Below are positions 279-11,351 of a DNA stretch of 64,000 nt, one piece after another (within the stretch, counting starts at the first letter, position 1; every line of letters starts with the position of its first letter). Below the pieces are notes generated by a model that worked only from the letters and a program-made list of their open reading frames with translations, did not search any database and was not told the DNA's origin. Both the position numbers and the translations under genes were made by a program. Source of the stretch: Lactobacillus johnsonii (lineage in GTDB: Bacteria; Bacillota; Bacilli; Lactobacillales; Lactobacillaceae); assembly GCF_014058685.1 (NCBI RefSeq), contig NZ_CP059055.1:930001-994000 (forward strand), read 5' to 3'.

Positions 279-1298
279 ATGAAATTAAAGATAAGTGATA
301 TTGCAGAAAAAGCAGGTGTATCAAAAGCGGCTGTCTCTTTTGCACTAAATGGAAAAGCAGGAGTAAGTGAAAAAACGAGGAAGCATATTTTTAAAGTAAT
401 AGAAGAAATGGGCTATGAACCACTAAGAAAGCATAAAAAGGGCGGTGTGAGAAAATTAACTAGCATTAGCTTAGTAATTATTAAGACTACTACAGGGTTA
501 ATGAATCGAAGTTATGCAAGTTTACCGTTTTTTGATTCATTAGTATCTAATCTTTCTCAAAATGTTGGTGGATCTGGTGGACAAGTTCAAATTGTTACTT
601 TAAATATTCGAAATTTGAAACAAGACATCGAAAATAGTACTGCTCTAAAGAAAAGTAAGGCGGCGATTGTTCTAGCAACAGATTTAAATAAAAAACAAAT
701 TCTATTCTTAGATTCTAAAATTAAGAATGCTATCTTTATTGATAATTATTTTGAAGATGTAGATGCAGACTTTGTTTCAATTGATAACTTTCAAGGAGGA
801 TATAATGCTGGAAAGTTTATTATAGAAAAAGGTTACACACAGATTGGTTATGTTGCATCAAATCGGATAATTACTAATTTTTTGAAGAGAAGAGAGGGTT
901 TTAGAACTGCTCTAAAAGAAAAAAATCTTGAAATTCCGCCAGACTTTGTCTTTAGTTTAAATCCAGTTGAATTGAGGGGAACATTACCTAAATTTTTCTA
1001 TTCGAATAAAAAGTATCCGCATGCAATTTTTTGTGAAGATGATTATATGGCTCTACGTTTAGTTAAAGAATTAACCAAAATTGGTATTAAAATCCCTGAC
1101 CAATTGGCAATCATGGGTTTTGATGATATTTTTGAGGATACAATGATTAATCCGGAATTAACAACAATTCACGTTCCGATTGAACAAATCGTTAGACAGG
1201 CAATTAATCAACTAGAAGAAAAAGTAAGTAATACGCATTGGCTTAGCCAGAAAAGCTTTATCTCGACAAAACTAATTGTAAGAGAATCATTAAAATAG
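279..1298 (+). CDS. LacI-family transcriptional regulator
   Basis: The 339-aa protein begins with a classic LacI helix-turn-helix (residues about 4-24, DIAEKAGVSKAAVSFALNG) and hinge region. The periplasmic-binding-protein-like sensor domain follows; its ending, with LAIMGFDDIFEDTMINPELTT, is typical of the family. It is a cytoplasmic repressor or activator that responds to a sugar or sugar phosphate. It sits between a divergent transketolase subunit and the downstream isomerase/apiosidase-like genes, so it probably controls both directions through sites at 174-187 and 1364-1377. The ribosome site is weak (AAGAAAG). The effector is unknown; a pentose or pentose-derived sugar is an inference from the neighbours. 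Confidence 0.9.
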   Translation: MKLKISDIAEKAGVSKAAVSFALNGKAGVSEKTRKHIFKVIEEMGYEPLRKHKKGGVRKLTSISLVIIKTTTGLMNRSYASLPFFDSLVSNLSQNVGGSGGQVQIVTLNIRNLKQDIENSTALKKSKAAIVLATDLNKKQILFLDSKIKNAIFIDNYFEDVDADFVSIDNFQGGYNAGKFIIEKGYTQIGYVASNRIITNFLKRREGFRTALKEKNLEIPPDFVFSLNPVELRGTLPKFFYSNKKYPHAIFCEDDYMALRLVKELTKIGIKIPDQLAIMGFDDIFEDTMINPELTTIHVPIEQIVRQAINQLEEKVSNTHWLSQKSFISTKLIVRESLK

Positions 1299-1363
1299 CT
1301 AGTTAAGTTTAATTAAGTAAATTAACTATTGATGTGTTAGGAAATACTAGCTATTGTAATTTG

Positions 1364-1377
1364 TGTAAGCGAATACA
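1364..1377. promoter_or_regulatory. cre-like/LacI operator upstream of the isomerase gene
   Basis: TGTAAGCGAATACA fits the cre pattern TGNAANCGNWNNCA. It lies just after a possible promoter (TTGATG at 1329, TATTGT at 1352), about where transcription would start. This suggests catabolite repression by CcpA or control by the neighbouring LacI protein. Confidence 0.6.
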
Positions 1378-1398
1378 TAAATTTGAGAGGTAATGAGT

Positions 1399-2859
1399 AT
1401 GACTAATTATGATAGTTTAAAACAAATTAAGATTGGCTTTGCACCAACAAGAAGAAACATTTTTTCTGCAACAGCAGCAATTGAATTTGCAAATAAAACA
1501 CGTGAAAAATTAGATGAACTAGGTGTCAATTATGTTGACATTAAAGAAGTAAATGATGACGGACTTCTGTACGACGATGATGGATTAGAAAAGATTACTG
1601 AGAAATTCAAGAAAGCAAAAATTGATGGGTTGTTCATTGCTAATGAGAATTTTGGTACTGAGTATGAAGTGGCAAGATTAGCTGCTAAACTTAATGTCCC
1701 GGTATTACTTTGGGGTCCAAAAGATGAAGCTCCAGCTCCCGACGGCTCACGTAGAAGGGATACACAGTGTGGATTATTTGCGATTGGAAAAGTTTTACGT
1801 CACTTTAATGTCCCGTTTACCTACATTAAAAATAGCGATATTGACGATCCTGCTTTTAGTAGAGGGATGATTGATTTTATCAAAGTATGTAATGTAGTTA
1901 AAACTTTTAAGAATACAAGAATTTTACAAATTGGTACTCGTCCCTTTGACTTTTGGTCAGTGATCGTTAATGAAGGAGAGTTATTAGAAAAGTTTGGTAT
2001 TCAACTTTCACCAATTCCTTTAGGAGAGTTAACTTCTTATATGTATGAGTTAATTGACAAAAAGGATTCTAGAATTGAGGAAACAAAAGAAACCTATCGT
2101 AATTGGGCTGATATTAAAATTAAAGATGAAGATTTCACCAAAGTAGCTGCTTTGAAACTTGCTATGCAAGATAAGATGAAGGAATATGGTTGCAATGCAG
2201 GTACAATTCAATGTTGGACTGAGTTGCAAAGGGAAATCGGTATTTTACCTTATGCTTCTGAAGCACTACTTCAAACCGAAGGCATGCCCGTAACTTGTGA
2301 GACAGATATTAATGGTGCTATTTCTGAATTATTAGCAGAAAGTGCTACTTTGGGTGATGAACGAGCCATATTTGCAGATGTTAACTGTCGCCATCCCGAA
2401 AATGAGAATGGTGAATTATTACAGCACTTAGGTACATTCGCCTTTCAAACAGCAAAAAATCGGCCAATTTTACCACCTTCACATTTTGTTTTTGACTATC
2501 CTGGCTCAGCTGCTTTTGAAGCTAAAGATGGAACCTATACCTTAGTGCGATTTGATGGTGATCACGGTAAGTATTCAATGTTAATTGGTAATGCTAAAAC
2601 TTGTGATGGACCATATGAACAAGGGACCTATGCCTGGTTCCAATTTAAGGATTTGAATAGATTTGAAGCAAAATATGTTTATGGACCATATATCCATCAT
2701 ATGGCTGGTGTACGAGCTGATGTTGTACCTATTTTAGCAGAAGCATGTAAGTACATTAATGTAAGTCCAGATTATTATGATCCAATTAAGGATAAGGTTG
2801 CAGCTTATTGGTACGGCGATTTAGATAGTATTTTGGATGATGAGCAGAAACACAAATAA
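1399..2859 (+). CDS. L-fucose/L-arabinose isomerase-like protein (COG2407 type)
   Basis: About 486 aa, cytoplasmic. The fold looks like that of the fucose/arabinose isomerases: a Rossmann-like N-terminal half, then the acidic metal-site region with TCETDINGA (Glu near residue 300) and a later histidine-containing stretch (GPYIHHMAG). Such enzymes interconvert aldose and ketose sugars with a divalent metal. I prefer the ATG at 1399 over the one at 1393 because GAGAGG at 1385-1390 is then 8 bases away. The next gene starts within 30 bases, so they form an operon. With split transketolase and apiosidase-like neighbours, apiose-to-apulose isomerisation is one possible role, but the sequence does not prove the substrate. 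Confidence 0.75.
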   Translation: MTNYDSLKQIKIGFAPTRRNIFSATAAIEFANKTREKLDELGVNYVDIKEVNDDGLLYDDDGLEKITEKFKKAKIDGLFIANENFGTEYEVARLAAKLNVPVLLWGPKDEAPAPDGSRRRDTQCGLFAIGKVLRHFNVPFTYIKNSDIDDPAFSRGMIDFIKVCNVVKTFKNTRILQIGTRPFDFWSVIVNEGELLEKFGIQLSPIPLGELTSYMYELIDKKDSRIEETKETYRNWADIKIKDEDFTKVAALKLAMQDKMKEYGCNAGTIQCWTELQREIGILPYASEALLQTEGMPVTCETDINGAISELLAESATLGDERAIFADVNCRHPENENGELLQHLGTFAFQTAKNRPILPPSHFVFDYPGSAAFEAKDGTYTLVRFDGDHGKYSMLIGNAKTCDGPYEQGTYAWFQFKDLNRFEAKYVYGPYIHHMAGVRADVVPILAEACKYINVSPDYYDPIKDKVAAYWYGDLDSILDDEQKHK

Positions 2860-2887
2860 GCTAAGTATTAAAGAGGAATGTAAAAGA

Positions 2888-4186
2888 ATGTTATCAACAA
2901 AAGGCAAATATTTGTATAAAAATGGAGAAAAACTATTTTATTTAGCTGATACTTGTTGGGGAGCCTTTACTAGTATTACAATGCCAGATTGGCGATATTA
3001 TCTTGATATGAGAAAATCTGAAGGATTTAATGCTATTCAAATTAATATATTACGCCAATGGGATTCTAGTAAACCATTAAAAGGACGAGAACCATTCACA
3101 GTCGTAGAGCACCCGGATGGATCATATGAATATGATTTTACTAAGATAAACGAGGAGTATTTTGATAATGCAGTTAAAATGCTGGAAGAGATGAAAAAGC
3201 GCAACATGGTTCCAGCACTGGTTTTACTCTGGAGCAATTTCATTCCAGATAATTGGATTGATAATCTTCACCTTGCTCAAAATAATTTAATGCCATTTGA
3301 TTGCATTAAACCTTATGTTACTTACGTAGTTAATAAATTTAAAAGATTTAATCCAATTTGGTTTGTAAGTGGGGATGTGGGATTCACTAATAATGAAAGA
3401 CAAAATCGCCAAACGGCAATTAAGTATTATCAAGAAGTGCTAGAGAGTGCCAAAAGTGTAGATCCAGCTGGCATATACACTTTTCACATTAATGGAGAGA
3501 GTCATGATTTGCCAGAAGAATTTGTTAAGCAAGTTAGTTTTTATAGTTATCAATCTGGTCATGGTTATAGCGGTCAAAAAACTGCCTATACTATTCCATT
3601 AGCTTTACGTGAAAAACAAAATTATCAGGGACCGATTATTGATACCGAACTTTGTTATGAAGGCTTGACCCAAATGCATTCGCCAGAACCTAAACGCTAT
3701 AATGCATTCGATGTACGAAAGGCTGCTTGGCGAGCAGTTTTATCGGGAGCTGATGCAGGCCTAGGTTATGGTAGTTTTGGAATATGGCCTTGGAAAGATA
3801 TTAGTCATCCTGAGCAGAAGTTAGAGAAAAATTTTAACGTTCAACTTGTACCATACGACTGGAGGACCTGTTTAACTTTTCGTGGTGCTAAGGATTTAGG
3901 ATTTCTGAAAGCCATTTTAACTAAATTTGCTCCTAATGGTTTAAAACCGCTTAATATTGATGTAAGTAAAGCAATTAGAGGCGCGGAAAGTGAGAATTAT
4001 ATCTTAATTTATTTACCAACAGCTGGAAATTTAGATTTTAATAAATTAGATTTACATATAAATAATTGTAAAGTTATTGATTTAAATAATAGAAGTATTT
4101 TAGAAGGTCAAGTAGAAAATAATGTCCTTAAAATGCTACCAGTGCTAGAAGATGAACTCATAATTATAGATAAGCAACTAAACTAA
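2888..4186 (+). CDS. Apiosidase-like (DUF4038) glycoside hydrolase, cytoplasmic
   Basis: About 432 aa from the ATG at 2888, which has AGAGGA 10 bases upstream. An alternative ATG at 2837 overlaps the isomerase and has no clear ribosome site. The protein is a TIM-barrel-like DUF4038 family member. The start (LYKNGEKLFYLADTCW), the acid/base region SGDVGFTNN (Asp163) and the likely nucleophile PIIDTELCYEG (Glu254) resemble GH140 apiosidases. There is no signal peptide, so it acts on imported sugar. It is probably co-transcribed with the isomerase. Its equivalent in the next locus (9819-11351) shares the ID(T/D)E-C-YEG block. Activity on apiosides is inference; related families have other specificities. 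Confidence 0.7.
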   Translation: MLSTKGKYLYKNGEKLFYLADTCWGAFTSITMPDWRYYLDMRKSEGFNAIQINILRQWDSSKPLKGREPFTVVEHPDGSYEYDFTKINEEYFDNAVKMLEEMKKRNMVPALVLLWSNFIPDNWIDNLHLAQNNLMPFDCIKPYVTYVVNKFKRFNPIWFVSGDVGFTNNERQNRQTAIKYYQEVLESAKSVDPAGIYTFHINGESHDLPEEFVKQVSFYSYQSGHGYSGQKTAYTIPLALREKQNYQGPIIDTELCYEGLTQMHSPEPKRYNAFDVRKAAWRAVLSGADAGLGYGSFGIWPWKDISHPEQKLEKNFNVQLVPYDWRTCLTFRGAKDLGFLKAILTKFAPNGLKPLNIDVSKAIRGAESENYILIYLPTAGNLDFNKLDLHINNCKVIDLNNRSILEGQVENNVLKMLPVLEDELIIIDKQLN

Positions 4187-4207
4187 GCTAAACTAATGTA
4201 GCACTTA

Positions 4208-4236
4208 TTGCAATCGTTTACATTAAATGCTATGCT
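4208..4236 (+). promoter_or_regulatory. Promoter of the antiterminator-PTS operon with overlapping cre
   Basis: TTGCAA (4208-4213) and TATGCT (4231-4236) are 17 bases apart. TGCAATCGTTTACA (4209-4222) fits the cre consensus and overlaps the -35 box. The operon should therefore be repressed by CcpA when preferred sugars are present. Confidence 0.6.
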
Positions 4237-4255
4237 TATAACTGAATAAGAAATC

Positions 4256-4332
4256 GGATTGTTACATTAAGTTGGCAAGACCAAATAAATCTAAATTATT
4301 TTAAGTTAGGTTTATTGAGTCTTGCCATTTTT
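4256..4332 (+). promoter_or_regulatory. RAT antiterminator overlapping an intrinsic terminator (LicT/BglG control)
   Basis: The stretch 4256-4282 begins GGATTGTTAC and ends GGCAAGACC, the two halves of a ribonucleic antiterminator of the BglG/SacY/LicT class. Its 3' half is also the left arm of a terminator: GGCAAGAC (4274-4281) pairs with GTCTTGCC (4319-4326), AATAAA/TTTATT extends the stem, and a T run follows. The two structures are mutually exclusive. The antiterminator encoded directly downstream would bind the RAT and let transcription pass when its sugar is present. Confidence 0.85.
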
Positions 4333-4350
4333 TATTGAAAGGTAAATTAT

Positions 4351-5193
4351 ATGTTTCTAATTAAAAGAGTTCTTAACAATAACGCTGTTGTTGCTACAGA
4401 TAAGCATAAGCAAACATTAGTAGCTTTAGGAAATGGAATTGCCTTTCATAAAAAGGCAGGTGAAGTTATTGGTGAAGAGAGAGTTGAAAAAGTATTTTAT
4501 CCAAAAAATGAAAAAGATACTAACTCAATGAGTGAAATGCTAGCTAGCATTGATCCAAAATATATTGAATTATCTGATCAAATTATTTCAGAAGCAATTG
4601 CAAGTTCAGGTAAAAAGTTAAGCGACGATATTTATTTATCATTGCCAGACCATTTGCAGTTTGCAGTTGAAAGGATAAAGAAGGGAATGCCGATTCAGAA
4701 TCGTTTAACAATTGAAACGATGCAAACATATCCGGATGAGTTTCAATTAGGAAAGCGGGTCCTTTATTATTTAGAAAAAAGTGAAAATTTAAAATTTCCA
4801 GAAGATGAGGCAACTAATATTGCAATGCATTTAATTACTGCTGAAGAAGGAAACTCACTTGAACATACAGCCGGAACAATTGAATTAATTAATAGGCTTT
4901 TAGATATTATTAGTGAAATGTTAAATATAGAAATTAGTTCAAAATCAGTTGCTTATTATCGGTTAGTAACTCATCTAAAATTTTTTGCTCAGAGAATTTC
5001 AAAAAAGCAAATCCAAGAATCTAGTGTTGATAAAGAACTTTATAGCATGGTTGTTCACCGCTATCATAAGGAATATTTAATTTCACAAAGAATCGCAGGA
5101 ATTGTGATGCAAAAGTTTGATTATAAAGTACCGCAAGATGAAATTATGTACTTAACGATCCATATTCATCATATTGCGGTTGCAGATAGGTAA
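4351..5193 (+). CDS. BglG/LicT-family transcription antiterminator
   Basis: This 280-aa protein has the expected three parts: an N-terminal RNA-binding domain (about 1-55, with VVATDKHKQTLVALGNGIAF) and two PTS regulation domains (about 65-170 and 175-280). The phosphorylatable PRD histidines are visible at 101, 160, 208 and 271. It should bind the RAT at 4256-4282 and stop the leader terminator from forming. PTS-dependent phosphorylation of the PRDs sets its activity. The permease gene starts 5 bases after its stop codon, so the pair is one self-regulated operon. Length and layout are normal for LicT-like proteins. Confidence 0.92.
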   Translation: MFLIKRVLNNNAVVATDKHKQTLVALGNGIAFHKKAGEVIGEERVEKVFYPKNEKDTNSMSEMLASIDPKYIELSDQIISEAIASSGKKLSDDIYLSLPDHLQFAVERIKKGMPIQNRLTIETMQTYPDEFQLGKRVLYYLEKSENLKFPEDEATNIAMHLITAEEGNSLEHTAGTIELINRLLDIISEMLNIEISSKSVAYYRLVTHLKFFAQRISKKQIQESSVDKELYSMVVHRYHKEYLISQRIAGIVMQKFDYKVPQDEIMYLTIHIHHIAVADR

Positions 5194-5198
5194 TGTAA

Positions 5199-7391
5199 AT
5201 GAATAACAGTTATAAAGAAGTAGCGGAAAAAATTTTGGTTGCAGTTGGTGGAGCAGAAAATATTAATGAAGTATTCAACTGTATTTCAAGGCTAAGGTTC
5301 TATTTAAAAGATTCAAAGAAAGTAAACTATCCAAAACTAAAGTTGATTCCAGCAATTTCAGAAAGTGAGTTTGAAGATGGACAGTTACAAATCCTTTTAG
5401 GTCAAGATGTAGAGCTTTATTATGATGCATTGGTTCACTTATTAAAGCAGAAAAATATAAGTGGAGGAGAAAAGAAAATGTCTAAAGTAGATGAAAAAGA
5501 TAAAAAACTAGCTGAAGAAATAGTCAAGCTAGTTGGTGGTAAAGATAATGTAATTAGTTTAGTTCATTGTGTGACTAGACTACGTTTTAAATTAAAAGAT
5601 GAAAGCAAAGCTGATGATAATGCAATTAAGCAATTAAAAGGAGTAATGGGCGTTGCTCATGCAGCTGGTCAATATCAAGTTATTATTGGAAACAACGTAG
5701 CAGATGTTTATGATCAAGTAATTCCACTTTTAGGATTGAGTCAGGATCATAAAGAAAATACAAATAAAGATAAAAATATAGTTAATCGCTTTATAAAATT
5801 ATTAACAACTATTTTTACACCATTTTTAGGAGTCTTAGCAGCTGCAGGTGTATTAAAAGGATTTTTAACGCTCTTGGTTGTTTTACATGTATTAAATACA
5901 AAGAGTGGCACATATTTAATTCTTTATGCTGCAGGGGATGCATTATTTTACTTTTTACCCGTGATGATAGGCTTTTCAACTGCTAGAACATTTAAAATAA
6001 ATGAATATGTTGGAGCAATTATAGGGGCAGCACTCTGCTATCCATCTTTAGTCCAGGCATATCAGATGAAGCAAAGCATTCAATTCTTTAATATTCCTGT
6101 TATTTTGATGAATTATACCCAAACGCTAATTCCAGCAATTATTGCGGTATGGCTAGCATCAATTCTGTATAAGTTTTTAAACAACTATCTACCTTCATCA
6201 TTAAAGCTTATCTTCACGCCTTTAATAACTTTAATGATTGCTGTTCCTTTAACTTTCTTAGTGGTAGGACCAGCAACTTCTTGGGCTAGTGAAGAATTGA
6301 CATATAGTATTCTTTGGATTTATGCTCATGCAAGAGTTGTAGCTGGGTTTATTTTAGCTGGTATTTGGCAAGCAGTAGTGTTACTAGGACTACATTGGGC
6401 CTTTATACCTATTTTTTTAAACAATATAGCAACTCGTGGTTTTGATCCTATTGATGCGATGTTATATTGTACAGTTTTTGGACAAACTGGGGCTGCATTG
6501 GCTTTAGTTCTAAAGGCTAAAGATTCTAAATTTAAGGAAATTGGTTGGCCAGCCGTTATTTCTGGTTTTTTGGGAGTAACAGAACCAATAATTTACGGAG
6601 TTACATTACCACATAAAAAATCCTTTATTCTTGGATCAATCGGATCAGCATTTGGTGGAGCAATCGCTGCTTTTTCAAATGCAAAAATGTTTGGAGGCTT
6701 TGCTAGTGGTGGTATTTTTGGAATTCCAATGTTTATTGATCAAAAAGCTGGAATTAATGGTAGCTTTATGGGATTTTGTCTATCTTTACTTGTCGCTTTT
6801 GGAATTGCTTTTATCAGTACTCTAATTTGGGGCGATAAAATTGTCTCTACTACTTCAAAGAAAGATTTTAAAGTTAAAAGAGTTGAATTCAAAGATCAAG
6901 GAATTGCATCCCCAGTTCAGGGTACTGCACTTGAATTAAAAAATGTCGATGACCCAGTTTTTTCGGCTGGTACTATTGGTAAAGGAATTGCTGTTCAACC
7001 AAATAATGATGAAATTCATGCGCCATTTGATGGTGAAGTAGTTTCTGTTTTTCCAACTAAACATGCTATTGGATTAAAGTCAGACAATGGAGTTGAATTG
7101 TTGATTCATTTAGGTATTAATACGGTAAATTTGAAAGGAAAATATTTCGAGGTAAAAGTTGAAGTAGGTCAAAAAGTTAAACAAGGTGACTTACTTGAGA
7201 CATTCGATGTAGATAAAATTAAGGCAGCTGGATATGACACAGTAGTTCCAATTATTGTAACGAATGCTAATAATTTTGATGATATTATTATTGAAAAGAA
7301 AAATGGAGATTCAGTAAGATTTGAAGATCAAATTTTAATGGCAACCGTTGATCAAGAAGTAGAAATTCCAGATAATGCTACTCAAGCATAA
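5199..7391 (+). CDS. PTS beta-glucoside-type permease with duplicated EIIB domain (B-B-C-A)
   Basis: A 730-aa membrane transporter that phosphorylates its sugar during import. The usual EIIB (from about residue 94, with active Cys124 in VHCVTRLRF), membrane EIIC (about 190-540) and EIIA (about 575-715, active His637 in LLIHLGIN) are all present. Ahead of them, residues 1-90 form a second EIIB-like domain with its own cysteine (Cys28 in FNCISRLRFYLKD). A strong ribosome site (GGAGGAG at 5463) sits 8 bases before an in-frame ATG at 5478, so a standard 637-aa EIIBCA could also be made from inside the gene. It is co-transcribed with the antiterminator. The substrate is unknown; a beta-glycoside is the family norm. 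Confidence 0.92.
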   Translation: MNNSYKEVAEKILVAVGGAENINEVFNCISRLRFYLKDSKKVNYPKLKLIPAISESEFEDGQLQILLGQDVELYYDALVHLLKQKNISGGEKKMSKVDEKDKKLAEEIVKLVGGKDNVISLVHCVTRLRFKLKDESKADDNAIKQLKGVMGVAHAAGQYQVIIGNNVADVYDQVIPLLGLSQDHKENTNKDKNIVNRFIKLLTTIFTPFLGVLAAAGVLKGFLTLLVVLHVLNTKSGTYLILYAAGDALFYFLPVMIGFSTARTFKINEYVGAIIGAALCYPSLVQAYQMKQSIQFFNIPVILMNYTQTLIPAIIAVWLASILYKFLNNYLPSSLKLIFTPLITLMIAVPLTFLVVGPATSWASEELTYSILWIYAHARVVAGFILAGIWQAVVLLGLHWAFIPIFLNNIATRGFDPIDAMLYCTVFGQTGAALALVLKAKDSKFKEIGWPAVISGFLGVTEPIIYGVTLPHKKSFILGSIGSAFGGAIAAFSNAKMFGGFASGGIFGIPMFIDQKAGINGSFMGFCLSLLVAFGIAFISTLIWGDKIVSTTSKKDFKVKRVEFKDQGIASPVQGTALELKNVDDPVFSAGTIGKGIAVQPNNDEIHAPFDGEVVSVFPTKHAIGLKSDNGVELLIHLGINTVNLKGKYFEVKVEVGQKVKQGDLLETFDVDKIKAAGYDTVVPIIVTNANNFDDIIIEKKNGDSVRFEDQILMATVDQEVEIPDNATQA

Positions 7392-7426
7392 GAGTTCACG
7401 AAAACTATTAAAACAATATCATCTGT

Positions 7427-7459
7427 AATAAGACTTGGCAGTTTGCCAAGTCTTATTTT
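7427..7459. terminator. Bidirectional terminator between the PTS gene and a LacI gene
   Basis: A perfect 14-bp stem, AATAAGACTTGGCA (7427-7440) with TGCCAAGTCTTATT (7444-7457), has a 3-base loop and T-rich flanks on both strands. The stop codon of the minus-strand LacI gene lies inside the right arm. It can end both convergent transcripts. Confidence 0.9.
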
Positions 7460-8409
7460 GTTGACTCTCTTTTTACAGTTTTAATATCTATCACACTATT
7501 TTCAGTAGAACTTTTACCATCAATCAATGCAAGCAATCTTTTAGCAGCAGTTTTGCCAATTAATTCAGGTTGTTGGTCAATCGTTGAAAGAGTAGGTGAA
7601 GTAAGCTCAGACATTTCAGTATTATCATAGCCAACTAATTGAAAGTCAGCTGGTACTCTTAGATTCATTTTTCTAGCTAATTTTAAAATATGGGCTGCAT
7701 AGATATCGTTAATTGTAATGATAGCATCGTAAGTCTGAATATTATGAAGAGCTTTTTCAGCGACTAATTTGTAAGTGTCGTGTTCACTAATTTCTTGTAA
7801 AGTATAGGTCAAGTGCCTCTTTTTTAATTCATTAATAATACTTGTGACTCTTTCTTTAACAGTTGGCAAGCTTAAAGGAAGATGTTGAATTAAGACAGCT
7901 CTTTTGGCAGTAGAGATTAACTTCACGCTTTCCTTCCCACCTTTAGCATTATCGGAAGCTATACGAATAATATCGTCAGAAATGTTTGCACTATCATACA
8001 TCACAAGCGGAATACGACAAATATTCTCATTCATTTCAAAGGCAGAAGAAATGATACCGTCAATATTATTTTGAAGGAAATTATTGATGGCCGCTTGATA
8101 CTTTTTATTGTTTGAACCTACGCTGAAAGATATCAAACATGTGTAGCCTGCTGGCTGCAAAACAGATTGAATTCCATTAATAATTCGACTGTAGAAGATG
8201 TTTTCAGCAAAAGGAATAATAATTCCAATCATTTTTGAACGCTTTTGATATAAAGTTCTAGCTACTTGATTAGGATGATAGTTTGTCTCTTCAATTATCT
8301 TGTTTACCTTTAATCGTGTCTTATCGCTTACTTTTCCTGAATTATTGATGATTCGAGATACGGTAGCGACAGATACGTTAGCTAATTTAGCAATATCTCT
8401 AATGGTCAT
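7453..8409 (-). CDS. LacI-family repressor of the adjacent MFS/hydrolase operon
   Basis: 318 aa. The N-terminus MTIRDIAKLANVSVATVSRI is a textbook LacI helix-turn-helix, followed by the hinge helix (YHPNQVARTL) and a sugar-binding-protein-like sensor domain (SDNAKGGKES, LVGYDNTEMSELTSPTLSTI). It is divergent from the MFS permease at 8578. The perfect palindrome at 8513-8526 lies between the two genes, within the core promoter of the permease, so direct repression relieved by a sugar ligand is the simplest model. The ligand is unknown. It is not closely similar to the regulator at 279. Confidence 0.92.
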   Translation of the reverse strand: MTIRDIAKLANVSVATVSRIINNSGKVSDKTRLKVNKIIEETNYHPNQVARTLYQKRSKMIGIIIPFAENIFYSRIINGIQSVLQPAGYTCLISFSVGSNNKKYQAAINNFLQNNIDGIISSAFEMNENICRIPLVMYDSANISDDIIRIASDNAKGGKESVKLISTAKRAVLIQHLPLSLPTVKERVTSIINELKKRHLTYTLQEISEHDTYKLVAEKALHNIQTYDAIITINDIYAAHILKLARKMNLRVPADFQLVGYDNTEMSELTSPTLSTIDQQPELIGKTAAKRLLALIDGKSSTENSVIDIKTVKRESTK

Positions 8410-8506
8410 ATTTTTAAATCCTTATTTTGAAAATACTGGGTTACAGCAGCTATTATAGCGCAAGTAATAATAAATATTAGTTTAGTGCTAGTTAAGTAAT
8501 TGCTTA

Positions 8507-8535
8507 TTGTAATGTAACCGGTTACATAATATTAT
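8507..8535 (+). promoter_or_regulatory. Promoter with perfect LacI-type palindromic operator in its spacer
   Basis: TTGTAA (8507-8512) and TATTAT (8530-8535) are 17 bases apart. The 16-base perfect palindrome ATGTAACCGGTTACAT (8512-8527) fills the spacer. A repressor bound there would block RNA polymerase. The central CG and the TGTAA/TTACA arms are typical of LacI/GalR operators and also resemble cre sites. Confidence 0.8.
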
Positions 8536-8577
8536 AGAGATGTGAGAAAAACAAGTAAAAAATAAGGAGGAAAAACA

Positions 8578-9804
8578 ATGAATGTTGAAAAAATAAAGCA
8601 AGATAATAAACATAATTGGAAATTAAAAGTCGGAATTCTTGGAATATCACTTTTCTTGCAGGTAGCTGGCTCCAATCTAGCAGCTATTCCTTTGATTGCT
8701 AAGTCCTTTCCGAATCAATCTTTAACTTCAGTACAAGCTCTCTTCACTTTACCATCTTTTACTATTATGCTTTTCATTTTATTTAGTAATGCAGTAATTA
8801 AATGGGTTGGTAAAAGAAATACAGTTATTATTGGGATGATTACGACAATAGTTGGTGGTTTAATACCGTTTTTTATTAGTAATTTTGCAATTATTGTTGC
8901 TAGTAGATTACTGGTTGGTGCTGGCATTGGTTTATTTACATCACTAGCGGTTTCGTTAATTGGAGACTGTTTTAGTGGAGAAGAACAAAAAACTTTAATT
9001 GGCATTCAAGGTGCTATGGGAACTTTAGGAAACAGTTCAATGACTTTTGTAGCTGGCCTTTTGTTGGGAATTAAGTGGCAAGCAACTTTTCTTTACTTCC
9101 TATTTATTATTCCATTTTTGATTTTATTCATGATGGGTTACACCCCAAAGATGGAAAAAGAAACTACTCTTGAAAAATCATCTACTAAAGAACAGAAACA
9201 GAGATCTAAGCATGCAAAAATTCCGGCAAGTATTTATGTTGCGTTCTTAATGCTATTTTTATACTTTTCGGCATTTATGGTTGAAGCAACAGCATCAGCT
9301 CTGGTTATTCAACAAAATCATTTGGCAAATCAGGGGATGTTGTCTACCGAAATTGCTATTGCGGGTCTGGTTGGAGCTCTAATTTCTATGGCATACGCTC
9401 GTATTTTCAAAGTACTAAAGAATTTTACTCCAGTAGTCGCAATTTCTTTAGGTACAGTTGGATTTATTGTGTGTTCACAAGCCCCTAATATGACTATTTT
9501 CTTTATTGGTTTATTGTTGATGATGATTTCAAGCTTAATTATTCCGTATGTTTACGACAGTATTTTAAGTGAAGTAGACAGTTCCATTAGTAACTTAATT
9601 ATTTCAATTGCTCAGATTTGTAACAATTTAGGTGCATTTGCATCACCATATGTAATAGCTTTATTGAGTGGAATGACTGGGTTGTCTACTGCGGTTGATC
9701 AAATGAGAATTAGCGCAGGTATTTTAGGAGTAATTGCCTTGGTATTTGTAGTACTTGCGGTTTCAAGAAACACTAAAAAAACTTCGGCAAAGGCTGTTAA
9801 ATAA
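8578..9804 (+). CDS. MFS permease, probably for the substrate of the downstream hydrolase
   Basis: The 408-aa protein has about 12 hydrophobic segments. A basic loop (VKWVGKRNT-like, here IKWVGKRNTVIIG) lies between helices 2 and 3, and a glycine-rich segment (LLVGAGIGLFTSLAVSLIGD) is characteristic of major facilitator transporters. A hydrophilic linker near residues 190-215 splits the two halves. AGGAGG precedes the ATG. The hydrolase gene starts 14 bases after its stop, so they form an operon under the 8513-8526 operator. The likely role is proton-driven uptake of a glycoside later cleaved inside the cell. It is related in sequence to the MFS protein at 21892-23073. Confidence 0.85.
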   Translation: MNVEKIKQDNKHNWKLKVGILGISLFLQVAGSNLAAIPLIAKSFPNQSLTSVQALFTLPSFTIMLFILFSNAVIKWVGKRNTVIIGMITTIVGGLIPFFISNFAIIVASRLLVGAGIGLFTSLAVSLIGDCFSGEEQKTLIGIQGAMGTLGNSSMTFVAGLLLGIKWQATFLYFLFIIPFLILFMMGYTPKMEKETTLEKSSTKEQKQRSKHAKIPASIYVAFLMLFLYFSAFMVEATASALVIQQNHLANQGMLSTEIAIAGLVGALISMAYARIFKVLKNFTPVVAISLGTVGFIVCSQAPNMTIFFIGLLLMMISSLIIPYVYDSILSEVDSSISNLIISIAQICNNLGAFASPYVIALLSGMTGLSTAVDQMRISAGILGVIALVFVVLAVSRNTKKTSAKAVK

Positions 9805-9818
9805 GAAGGAGAATAAAA

Positions 9819-11351
9819 ATGAAAGAAGTAGAAAAGTGGAAAAGATATGAATTAACATTGGATGGACCGACTGATGGAAATCCATTTCGAGATGTTGAAT
9901 TAAGTGCAACTTTTGATAGAAATAATCATTCGATTACAGTTGATGGATTCTACGATGGAGATGGAAAATATAAAATTCGCTACATGCCCGAAGTTGAGGG
10001 GGAATATACTGTTACGACACACTCGAACGTTCCAGAATTAGATGAAAAAAATGATAATTTTACAGTAACTAAGGCAAGCAAGGATAATCATGGACCGGTT
10101 AGGGTAGCAGGCAAAACTCATTTTGCTTATGCGGACGGTAGTAGTTATATTCCTTTTGGAACTACAGCTTATGCATGGACTGTACAACCAAAAGAGGTTC
10201 AAGAAGAAACACTAGAAACGTTAAAGAATAATAATTTCAATAAAATTAGAATGCTCGTATTTCCTAAGAGCTATTCATATAATGAAGAGGAACCAGAAAT
10301 ATATCCATTTGAAGGATTTTTAAGATATAAGCGTGGAGCAAATGATTGGGTTTTTGATGCTCATGAAACTGGTTTTGATTATACGAGACCAAATCCAAAG
10401 TATTTTCAAAATTTGGAAAATAACATTGATAAACTAGACAAACTTGGCATAGAGGCTGATTTAATTTTATTTAGTCCCTATGACCGTTGGGGCTTTGCTC
10501 GTATGGGATTAGAAAATAATCTTTGGTACTTAAAGTATGTTATTGCACGTCTTGCTTCATATAAAAATGTATGGTGGGCACTTGCAAATGAATATGATTT
10601 GATGAACTTAGTAGGACAAATTCCATTAAAAGATTGGGATCGAATAGGTGAATTCGTTCATGAAAAAGATCCATCACAACACCTAGAATCTATTCATAAT
10701 TTCTATGATCCACCTCAACATAAAGATACAACTAAGAATTGGTATGATCATACTAAGCCTTGGATTACACATTTAAGCATCCAAAGTGACAATGTTTTCA
10801 TAATTCCAAAATGGATTAAAGAATATCAAAAACCGGTTATCGATGATGAATGTCGCTATGAAGGTAATATTGAATTTGGCTGGGGTGACAATACTGCCAA
10901 AGGCATGATGGACAATTTCTGGCGTGTGGTTTTACGTGGAGGAGGATGTACTCATGGTGAAACTTACATTGATAAGCCTCATACAAAACGTCCAATTTGG
11001 TGGGCTCATGGAGGAAAATTATATGGTGAAAGTCAAAAGAAAATTAATTTCTTATATGACTTACTAAAAGATAATGGCTTTGATTGGGTAAATCCACAGG
11101 CCACAAGTGGACCAACATGGGAATTAGCAGTTGGTTCAACACCAGATGAAAAGAAATGGTTAGTTTATTTTGGCGAAAATCAGCCAGAGTTTGAAGTTTT
11201 AAGCTTTTTGCTAAAAGGAAAGAAATATCATGCCAAGCTTATTAATGCTTGGGATGAAACAGTGGAAGATTTTGATCAAGAAGTTGAAAATGATAAATAT
11301 ATTCATTTACCACGGAAAGATTATCAAGCTTTGTTATTAATAGCAGAATAG
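9819..11351 (+). CDS. DUF5060-DUF4038-type glycoside hydrolase, cytoplasmic
   Basis: 510 aa with no signal peptide. Residues about 1-85 form an N-terminal beta-sandwich (DUF5060-like: ELTLDGPTDGNPFRDVELSA). The central TIM-barrel-like DUF4038 domain (about 95-400) has candidate catalytic Glu258 in WWALANEYDLMN and Glu344 in PVIDDECRYEGN. The C-terminal part (about 420-510) looks like a beta domain of the DUF5605 kind. The family is retained by many gut bacteria and is thought to cleave glycosides; the exact bond is unknown. It follows an MFS permease in a LacI-controlled operon, so it should act on an imported, unphosphorylated sugar. It is distinct from the shorter DUF4038 protein at 2888-4186. 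Confidence 0.8.
   Translation: MKEVEKWKRYELTLDGPTDGNPFRDVELSATFDRNNHSITVDGFYDGDGKYKIRYMPEVEGEYTVTTHSNVPELDEKNDNFTVTKASKDNHGPVRVAGKTHFAYADGSSYIPFGTTAYAWTVQPKEVQEETLETLKNNNFNKIRMLVFPKSYSYNEEEPEIYPFEGFLRYKRGANDWVFDAHETGFDYTRPNPKYFQNLENNIDKLDKLGIEADLILFSPYDRWGFARMGLENNLWYLKYVIARLASYKNVWWALANEYDLMNLVGQIPLKDWDRIGEFVHEKDPSQHLESIHNFYDPPQHKDTTKNWYDHTKPWITHLSIQSDNVFIIPKWIKEYQKPVIDDECRYEGNIEFGWGDNTAKGMMDNFWRVVLRGGGCTHGETYIDKPHTKRPIWWAHGGKLYGESQKKINFLYDLLKDNGFDWVNPQATSGPTWELAVGSTPDEKKWLVYFGENQPEFEVLSFLLKGKKYHAKLINAWDETVEDFDQEVENDKYIHLPRKDYQALLLIAE

Follow-up and report, generated by a model that had tools for sequence, protein, structure and literature searches.

The open reading frame at 5199-7391 of the window (the 64,000-nucleotide stretch of Lactobacillus johnsonii DNA analysed here) encodes a 730-residue PTS permease of the glucose/beta-glucoside class, in which two EIIB domains stand in front of EIIC and EIIA (B1-B2-C-A, hereafter BBCA; Table 1). 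There is hardly any doubt that this two-EIIB architecture is real. Comparison of six Lactobacillus lineages suggests that the gene also gives rise to an ordinary B2-C-A permease, and we tentatively propose that B1 is a phosphorylatable EIIB used mainly for the adjacent antiterminator LicT, with B2 used for transport.

Table 1. Features of the BBCA permease gene and its operon, in positions of the window
Feature	Position	Strand	Evidence
Isomerase, probable D-apiose isomerase, SftI/fucose-isomerase-like	1393..2859	+	profile scores below cut-offs; adjoins transketolase halves and FGGY kinase
Apiosidase-like glycoside hydrolase	2837..4186	+	PF13204 264.6 bits
Predicted LicT binding site (RAT) upstream of licT; overlaps a terminator stem, terminator end near 4334	4256..4282	+	GGATTGTTACATTAAGTTGGCAAGACC then GTCTTGCC-TTTTTT
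licT, BglG/LicT-family antiterminator, CAT_RBD and two PRDs	4351..5193	+	PF03123 65.6 bits, PF00874 139 bits
B1-B2-C-A permease, long form, 730 aa	5199..7391	+	TIGR01995 813 bits (cut-off 615; B2-C-A part)
B1, extra EIIB domain, aa 1-86	5199..5456	+	PF00367 55.3 bits (residues 1-93 scanned alone; cut-off 27); AlphaFold2; Foldseek; conserved Cys28/Arg31/Arg33
Internal Shine-Dalgarno GGAGGAG	5463..5469	+	8 nt before ATG 5478
In-frame ATG (M94) at which the probable short form B2-C-A would begin (637 aa, 5478-7391)	5478..5480	+	invariant in six lineages
B2, canonical EIIB, aa 102-178	5502..5732	+	PF00367 62.7 bits
EIIC membrane domain, aa 205-545	5811..6833	+	PF02378 114 bits, Pfam match aa 205-478
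EIIA domain, aa 569-692	6903..7274	+	PF00358 170 bits

In a Pfam scan, PTS_EIIB (PF00367) matched the frame twice, at residues 10-43 and 106-139, and a separate scan scored the two domains at 56.6 and 62.7 bits, the latter being B2. As expected of an EIIBCA permease, PF00367, PF02378, PF00358 and TIGR01995 all exceeded their curated cut-offs. The class motif C-x-T-R-x-R is present and invariant in B2 as CVTRLR and takes the form C-x-[SA]-R-x-R in B1; the chain departs from the class in carrying two EIIBs rather than one. Cys28 (codon 5280-5282) lies in the motif FNCISRLRF of B1 and Cys124 (codon 5568-5570) in VHCVTRLRF of B2. An AlphaFold2 model of B1 (pLDDT 95.3) resembled the solved EIIB-Glc structures 3bp3, 1o2f, 3bp8 and 3ipj with rmsd values of 1.0-1.3 Å in Foldseek, so that B1 is confidently modelled as an EIIB fold. 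In the full-length model B1 and B2 are alike in the order of their elements, and the linker at residues 88-97 is disordered. An earlier note on this DNA had proposed an extra N-terminal EIIB-like domain with its own cysteine ahead of the normal EIIB; the Pfam score, the modelled fold and the presence of Cys28 bear this out, and the coordinates it gave for the gene, the cysteines, GGAGGAG and ATG 5478 are all correct.

A search for other B-B-C-A permeases found them in Lactobacillus only. Full-length B1-B2 matches occurred in 8 of 75 Lactobacillus genomes, sampled at one genome per species, and represent six distinct lineages: that of the window (shared at 99% identity by two further genomes), G021 (82%), and G003, G065, G008 and G067 (61-66%). 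The G065 lineage is presumably Lactobacillus melliventris, a honeybee species. Outside Lactobacillus, no full-length B1-B2 match was present in 397 genomes of the family, 395 of the order or 398 of the phylum. The best plasmid matches were rejected as B-B proteins, one single EIIB stretch covering both query domains. A scan of contigs revealed further B-B arrangements only in Lactobacillus and, with a distinct first domain (B*-B), in Faecalibacterium/Gemmiger. Another rearrangement of the same domains was seen in some Lactobacillaceae PTS permeases (L018, L120), which have EIIA at the N-terminus in A-B-C order.

Within B1 the catalytic core has stayed fixed. C28, R31, R33, G17, G18, N21 and G68 are invariant in all six lineages; the near-invariant Thr of C-x-T-R is replaced by Ala or Ser in every one, and in the window the residue preceding Cys28 is Asn in place of His. 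The chemistry of B1 may be altered, given the loss of this Thr and the His to Asn change in the window. Identity among the lineages is 38-74% for B1 and 77-94% for B2. Synonymous change in B1 is saturated across the six lineages (dS ~1 or more) and dN is low; in the closest pair dN is 0.13 and dS 2.7 (dN/dS ~0.05). The pN/pS ratio is 0.17 for B1 in the closest pair, 0.06 for B2, 0.10 for A and ~0.17 for EIICs of the same type, and dN of B2 is ~4-5 times lower than that of B1. These rates indicate purifying selection on B1, weaker than that on B2. Low dN relative to dS, together with the fixed catalytic residues, shows that B1 is a maintained protein domain under less constraint than B2. The idea that B1 is a recent tandem copy of B2 was not supported, as the two fall into separate clades (support 76 for that of B1), although trees of 80 residues resolve little.

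The Faecalibacterium/Gemmiger proteins (L041, L063, L067 and L072; about 3950-4240) show that a comparable arrangement exists elsewhere. There, licT is followed by a B*-B-C gene and then by a GH1-like gene. Their likeness to BBCA lies in an extra EIIB-like domain before a glucose-family EIIB, in licT upstream and in a strong Shine-Dalgarno sequence before an internal Met, here at the end of B*. They differ in that the cysteine of B* is replaced by Arg (TRRG/SRRG) and EIIA is not in the chain. B* also falls outside the B1 group in the tree, and on that ground we rejected B1 and B* as one ancestral domain. With a Faecalibacterium query, no B*-B protein was found in 249 genomes of the phylum search. 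According to the earlier note, an extra domain that is common and catalytically dead in homologues would speak against its reading. This does not hold for the orthologues, in which Cys28, Arg31 and Arg33 are invariant, but the separate Faecalibacterium/Gemmiger group does have an extra domain that lacks the Cys. Escherichia coli FruA (IIB'-IIB-IIC) likewise has two successive IIB domains ahead of IIC in a single protein, but it belongs to the fructose family, has no LicT and does not carry EIIA in the same chain. The N-terminal IIB' of FruA lacks the active cysteine, unlike B1 with its invariant Cys28, and all domains of BBCA are of the glucose family. Taken together, B* and the duplicated IIB of FruA show that an extra EIIB arose more than once and that its cysteine was not always kept. 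In the literature searched, which left most subscription journals outside, we found no description of tandem EIIBs in a glucose-family permease; matches to 'duplicated IIB' were only papers citing the fructose permease or dealing with bird MHC genes.

The GGAGGAG sequence preceding the in-frame ATG at 5478 had been singled out in the earlier note as a second start that could yield the usual EIIBCA. It was found as described and stands out from chance: among 679 internal ATGs it ranks in the top ~1%, and of 93 presumed true starts it exceeds 69% in strength. All six BBCA lineages retain both this Shine-Dalgarno sequence and the ATG, with duplex energies of −9.2 to −10.3 kcal/mol that likewise fall in the top ~1% of internal ATGs and beat 67-86% of the 93 presumed starts; in each the corresponding sequence at the upstream (B1) start is weaker (−4.8 kcal/mol at 5199). 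Besides the start, four Met columns are conserved in all six lineages, and the three other than M94 average −2.7 to +0.9 kcal/mol and have no Shine-Dalgarno sequence. G90 and M94 are the only invariant residues of the linker before the next helix (residues 87-101). The position of M94 matches the native start of the nearest single-B relatives, which also has a strong Shine-Dalgarno sequence, and M94 thus probably represents the original start of BCA, retained when B1 was joined on. With the amino acids taken as fixed, a synonymous-codon test of the linker favoured the Shine-Dalgarno sequence weakly (Fisher P = 0.03 combined; P = 0.57 for the window alone). Since codon choice alone is weak, it is the joint conservation of the Shine-Dalgarno sequence and the Met that argues for an internal start. 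On these comparative grounds the second start appears well supported, and we consider it likely that one gene gives two products, the licT-coupled BBCA and BCA.

The context of the gene is that of a LicT/BglG-controlled operon. A licT gene precedes every BBCA and encodes a CAT-PRD1-PRD2 antiterminator; in the window its score with NF046042 (LicT) is 284 bits, slightly below the cut-off of 300. In each of the six BBCA loci licT follows a near-identical RAT fused to a terminator, and the PRD motif histidines are intact in all six LicTs. The start codon at 5199 stands 5 nt past the licT stop, and across the six loci the distance from licT stop to B1 start ranges from −14 to +15 nt. The BBCA-linked LicTs form one clade (65% or more), as against 36% or less with all other LicTs of the genus. 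Nothing indicated that LicT had brought B1 along as its original EIIB partner, LicT similarity and EIIB similarity to B1 being uncorrelated over 21 licT-EIIB pairs (Spearman 0.02).

Comparison of the window with G021 revealed an exchange within the permease. Identity is 91% for LicT, 74% for B1, 94% for B2 and 88% for A, but 56% for EIIC. The EIIC of the window has its affinities with G065/G008 (79-82%) and that of G021 with G003/G067 (82%), and the break points of this mosaic lie near residues 177 and 550. Two EIIC types, ~56-59% alike, are thus exchanged among BBCA chains with otherwise close LicT, EIIB and EIIA (window 5732-6880; L136, L137, L138, L139, L140). The pattern indicates that the membrane domain has been swapped wholesale between family members, licT-B1-B2 and A having stayed. 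Replacement of the substrate domain left licT-B1-B2 joined, which speaks against a B1 specific to one EIIC. The persistence of this unit could also be due to linkage alone, and the adjacency of licT and B1 accounts in part for their being inherited together. The earlier note had further suggested that the extra domain might signal to the neighbouring antiterminator. Its interpretation stands in part: comparison of the six lineages supports the second start, and signalling by B1 to LicT is plausible from the context, because upstream of every BBCA there is a licT that has its RAT-terminator and whose PRD histidines are intact, and the licT-B1 pairing outlived the EIIC swaps.

The substrate is probably a glycoside of D-apiose. 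Two transketolase halves and an FGGY kinase lie divergent to the operon, just outside the window (G000 C1 926900-930300), and with the isomerase and apiosidase they complete the set of the transketolase route, in which aptA/aptB are the transketolase halves; aptA/aptB and aplK are markers of D-apiose catabolism (PMC13001218). Window 279-11351 together with this neighbouring region is therefore a probable D-apiose-glycoside utilisation locus, including two apiosidase-like hydrolases, and the PTS probably imports an apiosyl-glucoside. The transporter module at the apiose locus varies among Lactobacillus species, being LicT-PTS, ribose-type ABC or neither; the licT-BBCA module is absent from the same locus in other Lactobacillus, three of which have the ABC-transporter module there (L164, L166, L168). 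Sister loci contain an alpha-L-rhamnosidase-like gene and an lp_1002-like arylesterase (L136 10569-13355, L140 10292-13054, L136 9609-10517), both below NCBIfam cut-offs, which point to rhamnosyl/apiosyl plant glycosides. An MFS transporter and a DUF5060/apiosidase-like gene lie at window 7453-11351, with a second LacI-family regulator pointing away from them; uptake at this locus thus appears to run by two routes under separate control.

With a cysteine in both EIIBs, and with the first of them coupled to licT but bound to no single EIIC, the simplest interpretation is that B1 serves mainly LicT and B2 the sugar. The long permease would come from ribosomes that end licT and re-initiate at 5199, and ordinary B2-C-A from those that load at the strong internal site and start at 5478. 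B2 would be the transport phosphocarrier, passing phosphate from EIIA-His via Cys124 to the glycoside in EIIC, and B1 would take phosphate on Cys28 for use mainly in regulation. In the absence of substrate, phosphate on B1 would pass to a PRD of the adjacent LicT and keep it off. With transport on, phosphate would drain to the sugar via B2, B1 would be dephosphorylated and LicT freed to bind the RAT, switching on licT-BBCA. We infer that both proteins are made, that Cys28 is phosphorylated with LicT as its target, and the direction of control. The fuller proposal, that a glucose-family permease divides its phosphate outlets between B2 for sugar and B1 for the antiterminator, with the BBCA:BCA ratio set by licT-coupled versus internal initiation, is more speculative. 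To our knowledge a single EIIB suffices in every ordinary LicT/BglG system, so that a second is unneeded in principle. BBCA resembles the beta-glucoside permeases (BglF/BglP-type EIIBCA, TIGR01995) that work with LicT/BglG in its B2-C-A part, with EIIA, EIIB and EIIC, and in having licT with a RAT-terminator upstream; it differs in the added N-terminal EIIB with its own Cys, the internal start that would yield the normal form and the apiose-type operon. PRD antiterminators are switched off when their cognate permeases phosphorylate PRD1, and the main role of Bacillus subtilis SacX is to sense for SacY (PMC6148471). SacX offers a parallel as a permease mainly controlling a PRD antiterminator, but there a whole separate permease senses, rather than a second EIIB in the same chain.

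Nearly as good as the reading of divided outlets is one in which B1 acts as a FruA-like helper that docks or oligomerises, speeding EIIA-to-B2 transfer or holding the complex, with no LicT role of its own; we regard it as possible rather than probable. Both IIB copies of FruA are needed for full activity (Charbit 1996, as cited in PMC2405797). The Faecalibacterium/Gemmiger domain, with Arg for Cys before B-C, indicates that a Cys-less extra domain can persist and makes a non-catalytic helper role possible for B1, which evolves faster than B2 and has lost the Thr. However, a helper would have no need to keep Cys28, Arg31 and Arg33, as all six lineages do, and, being absent from the short form, it would serve only part of the molecules. 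The retained Cys and both Arg would suit a second transport phosphocarrier, which raises the local phosphate supply or delivers to the sugar as a dose effect without regulatory function, and the flexible linker at residues 88-97 would let both B domains reach A and C. We think this unlikely, as B1 is far less constrained than B2 and has lost a near-invariant residue, and as its pairing with licT, rather than with one EIIC type, is left unexplained.

LicT might instead be held by binding and not by phosphorylation, with B1 as a membrane anchor sequestering LicT in the manner of E. coli dephospho-EIIB-Glc with Mlc. The EIIB-Mlc complex 3bp8, among the Foldseek matches of B1, is a precedent for an EIIB binding a regulator directly, and stop-start coupling would favour equal amounts of LicT and long form; sequestration by itself does not require the two Arg, and we give this reading a small chance. 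Smaller still is the chance that B1 is an accident, a leftover fused EIIB tolerated since translation really begins downstream of it. In favour are the strength of the internal start, its match to the probable ancestral BCA start and the weak Shine-Dalgarno sequence at 5199, but B1 has stayed open and Cys-bearing in six lineages despite saturated synonymous change and with low dN.

In BglF/LicT-type systems one EIIB cysteine serves both sugar and antiterminator, and mutations that affect only one of these functions are therefore hard to obtain. Where a permease naturally has two EIIBs with a cysteine each, either phosphate outlet could be removed separately, and separate tests of how an importer feeds the sugar and how it feeds the gene switch could become possible. 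Furthermore, the conserved internal start would make this a natural case of one gene supplying a transporter both with and without a sensing function.
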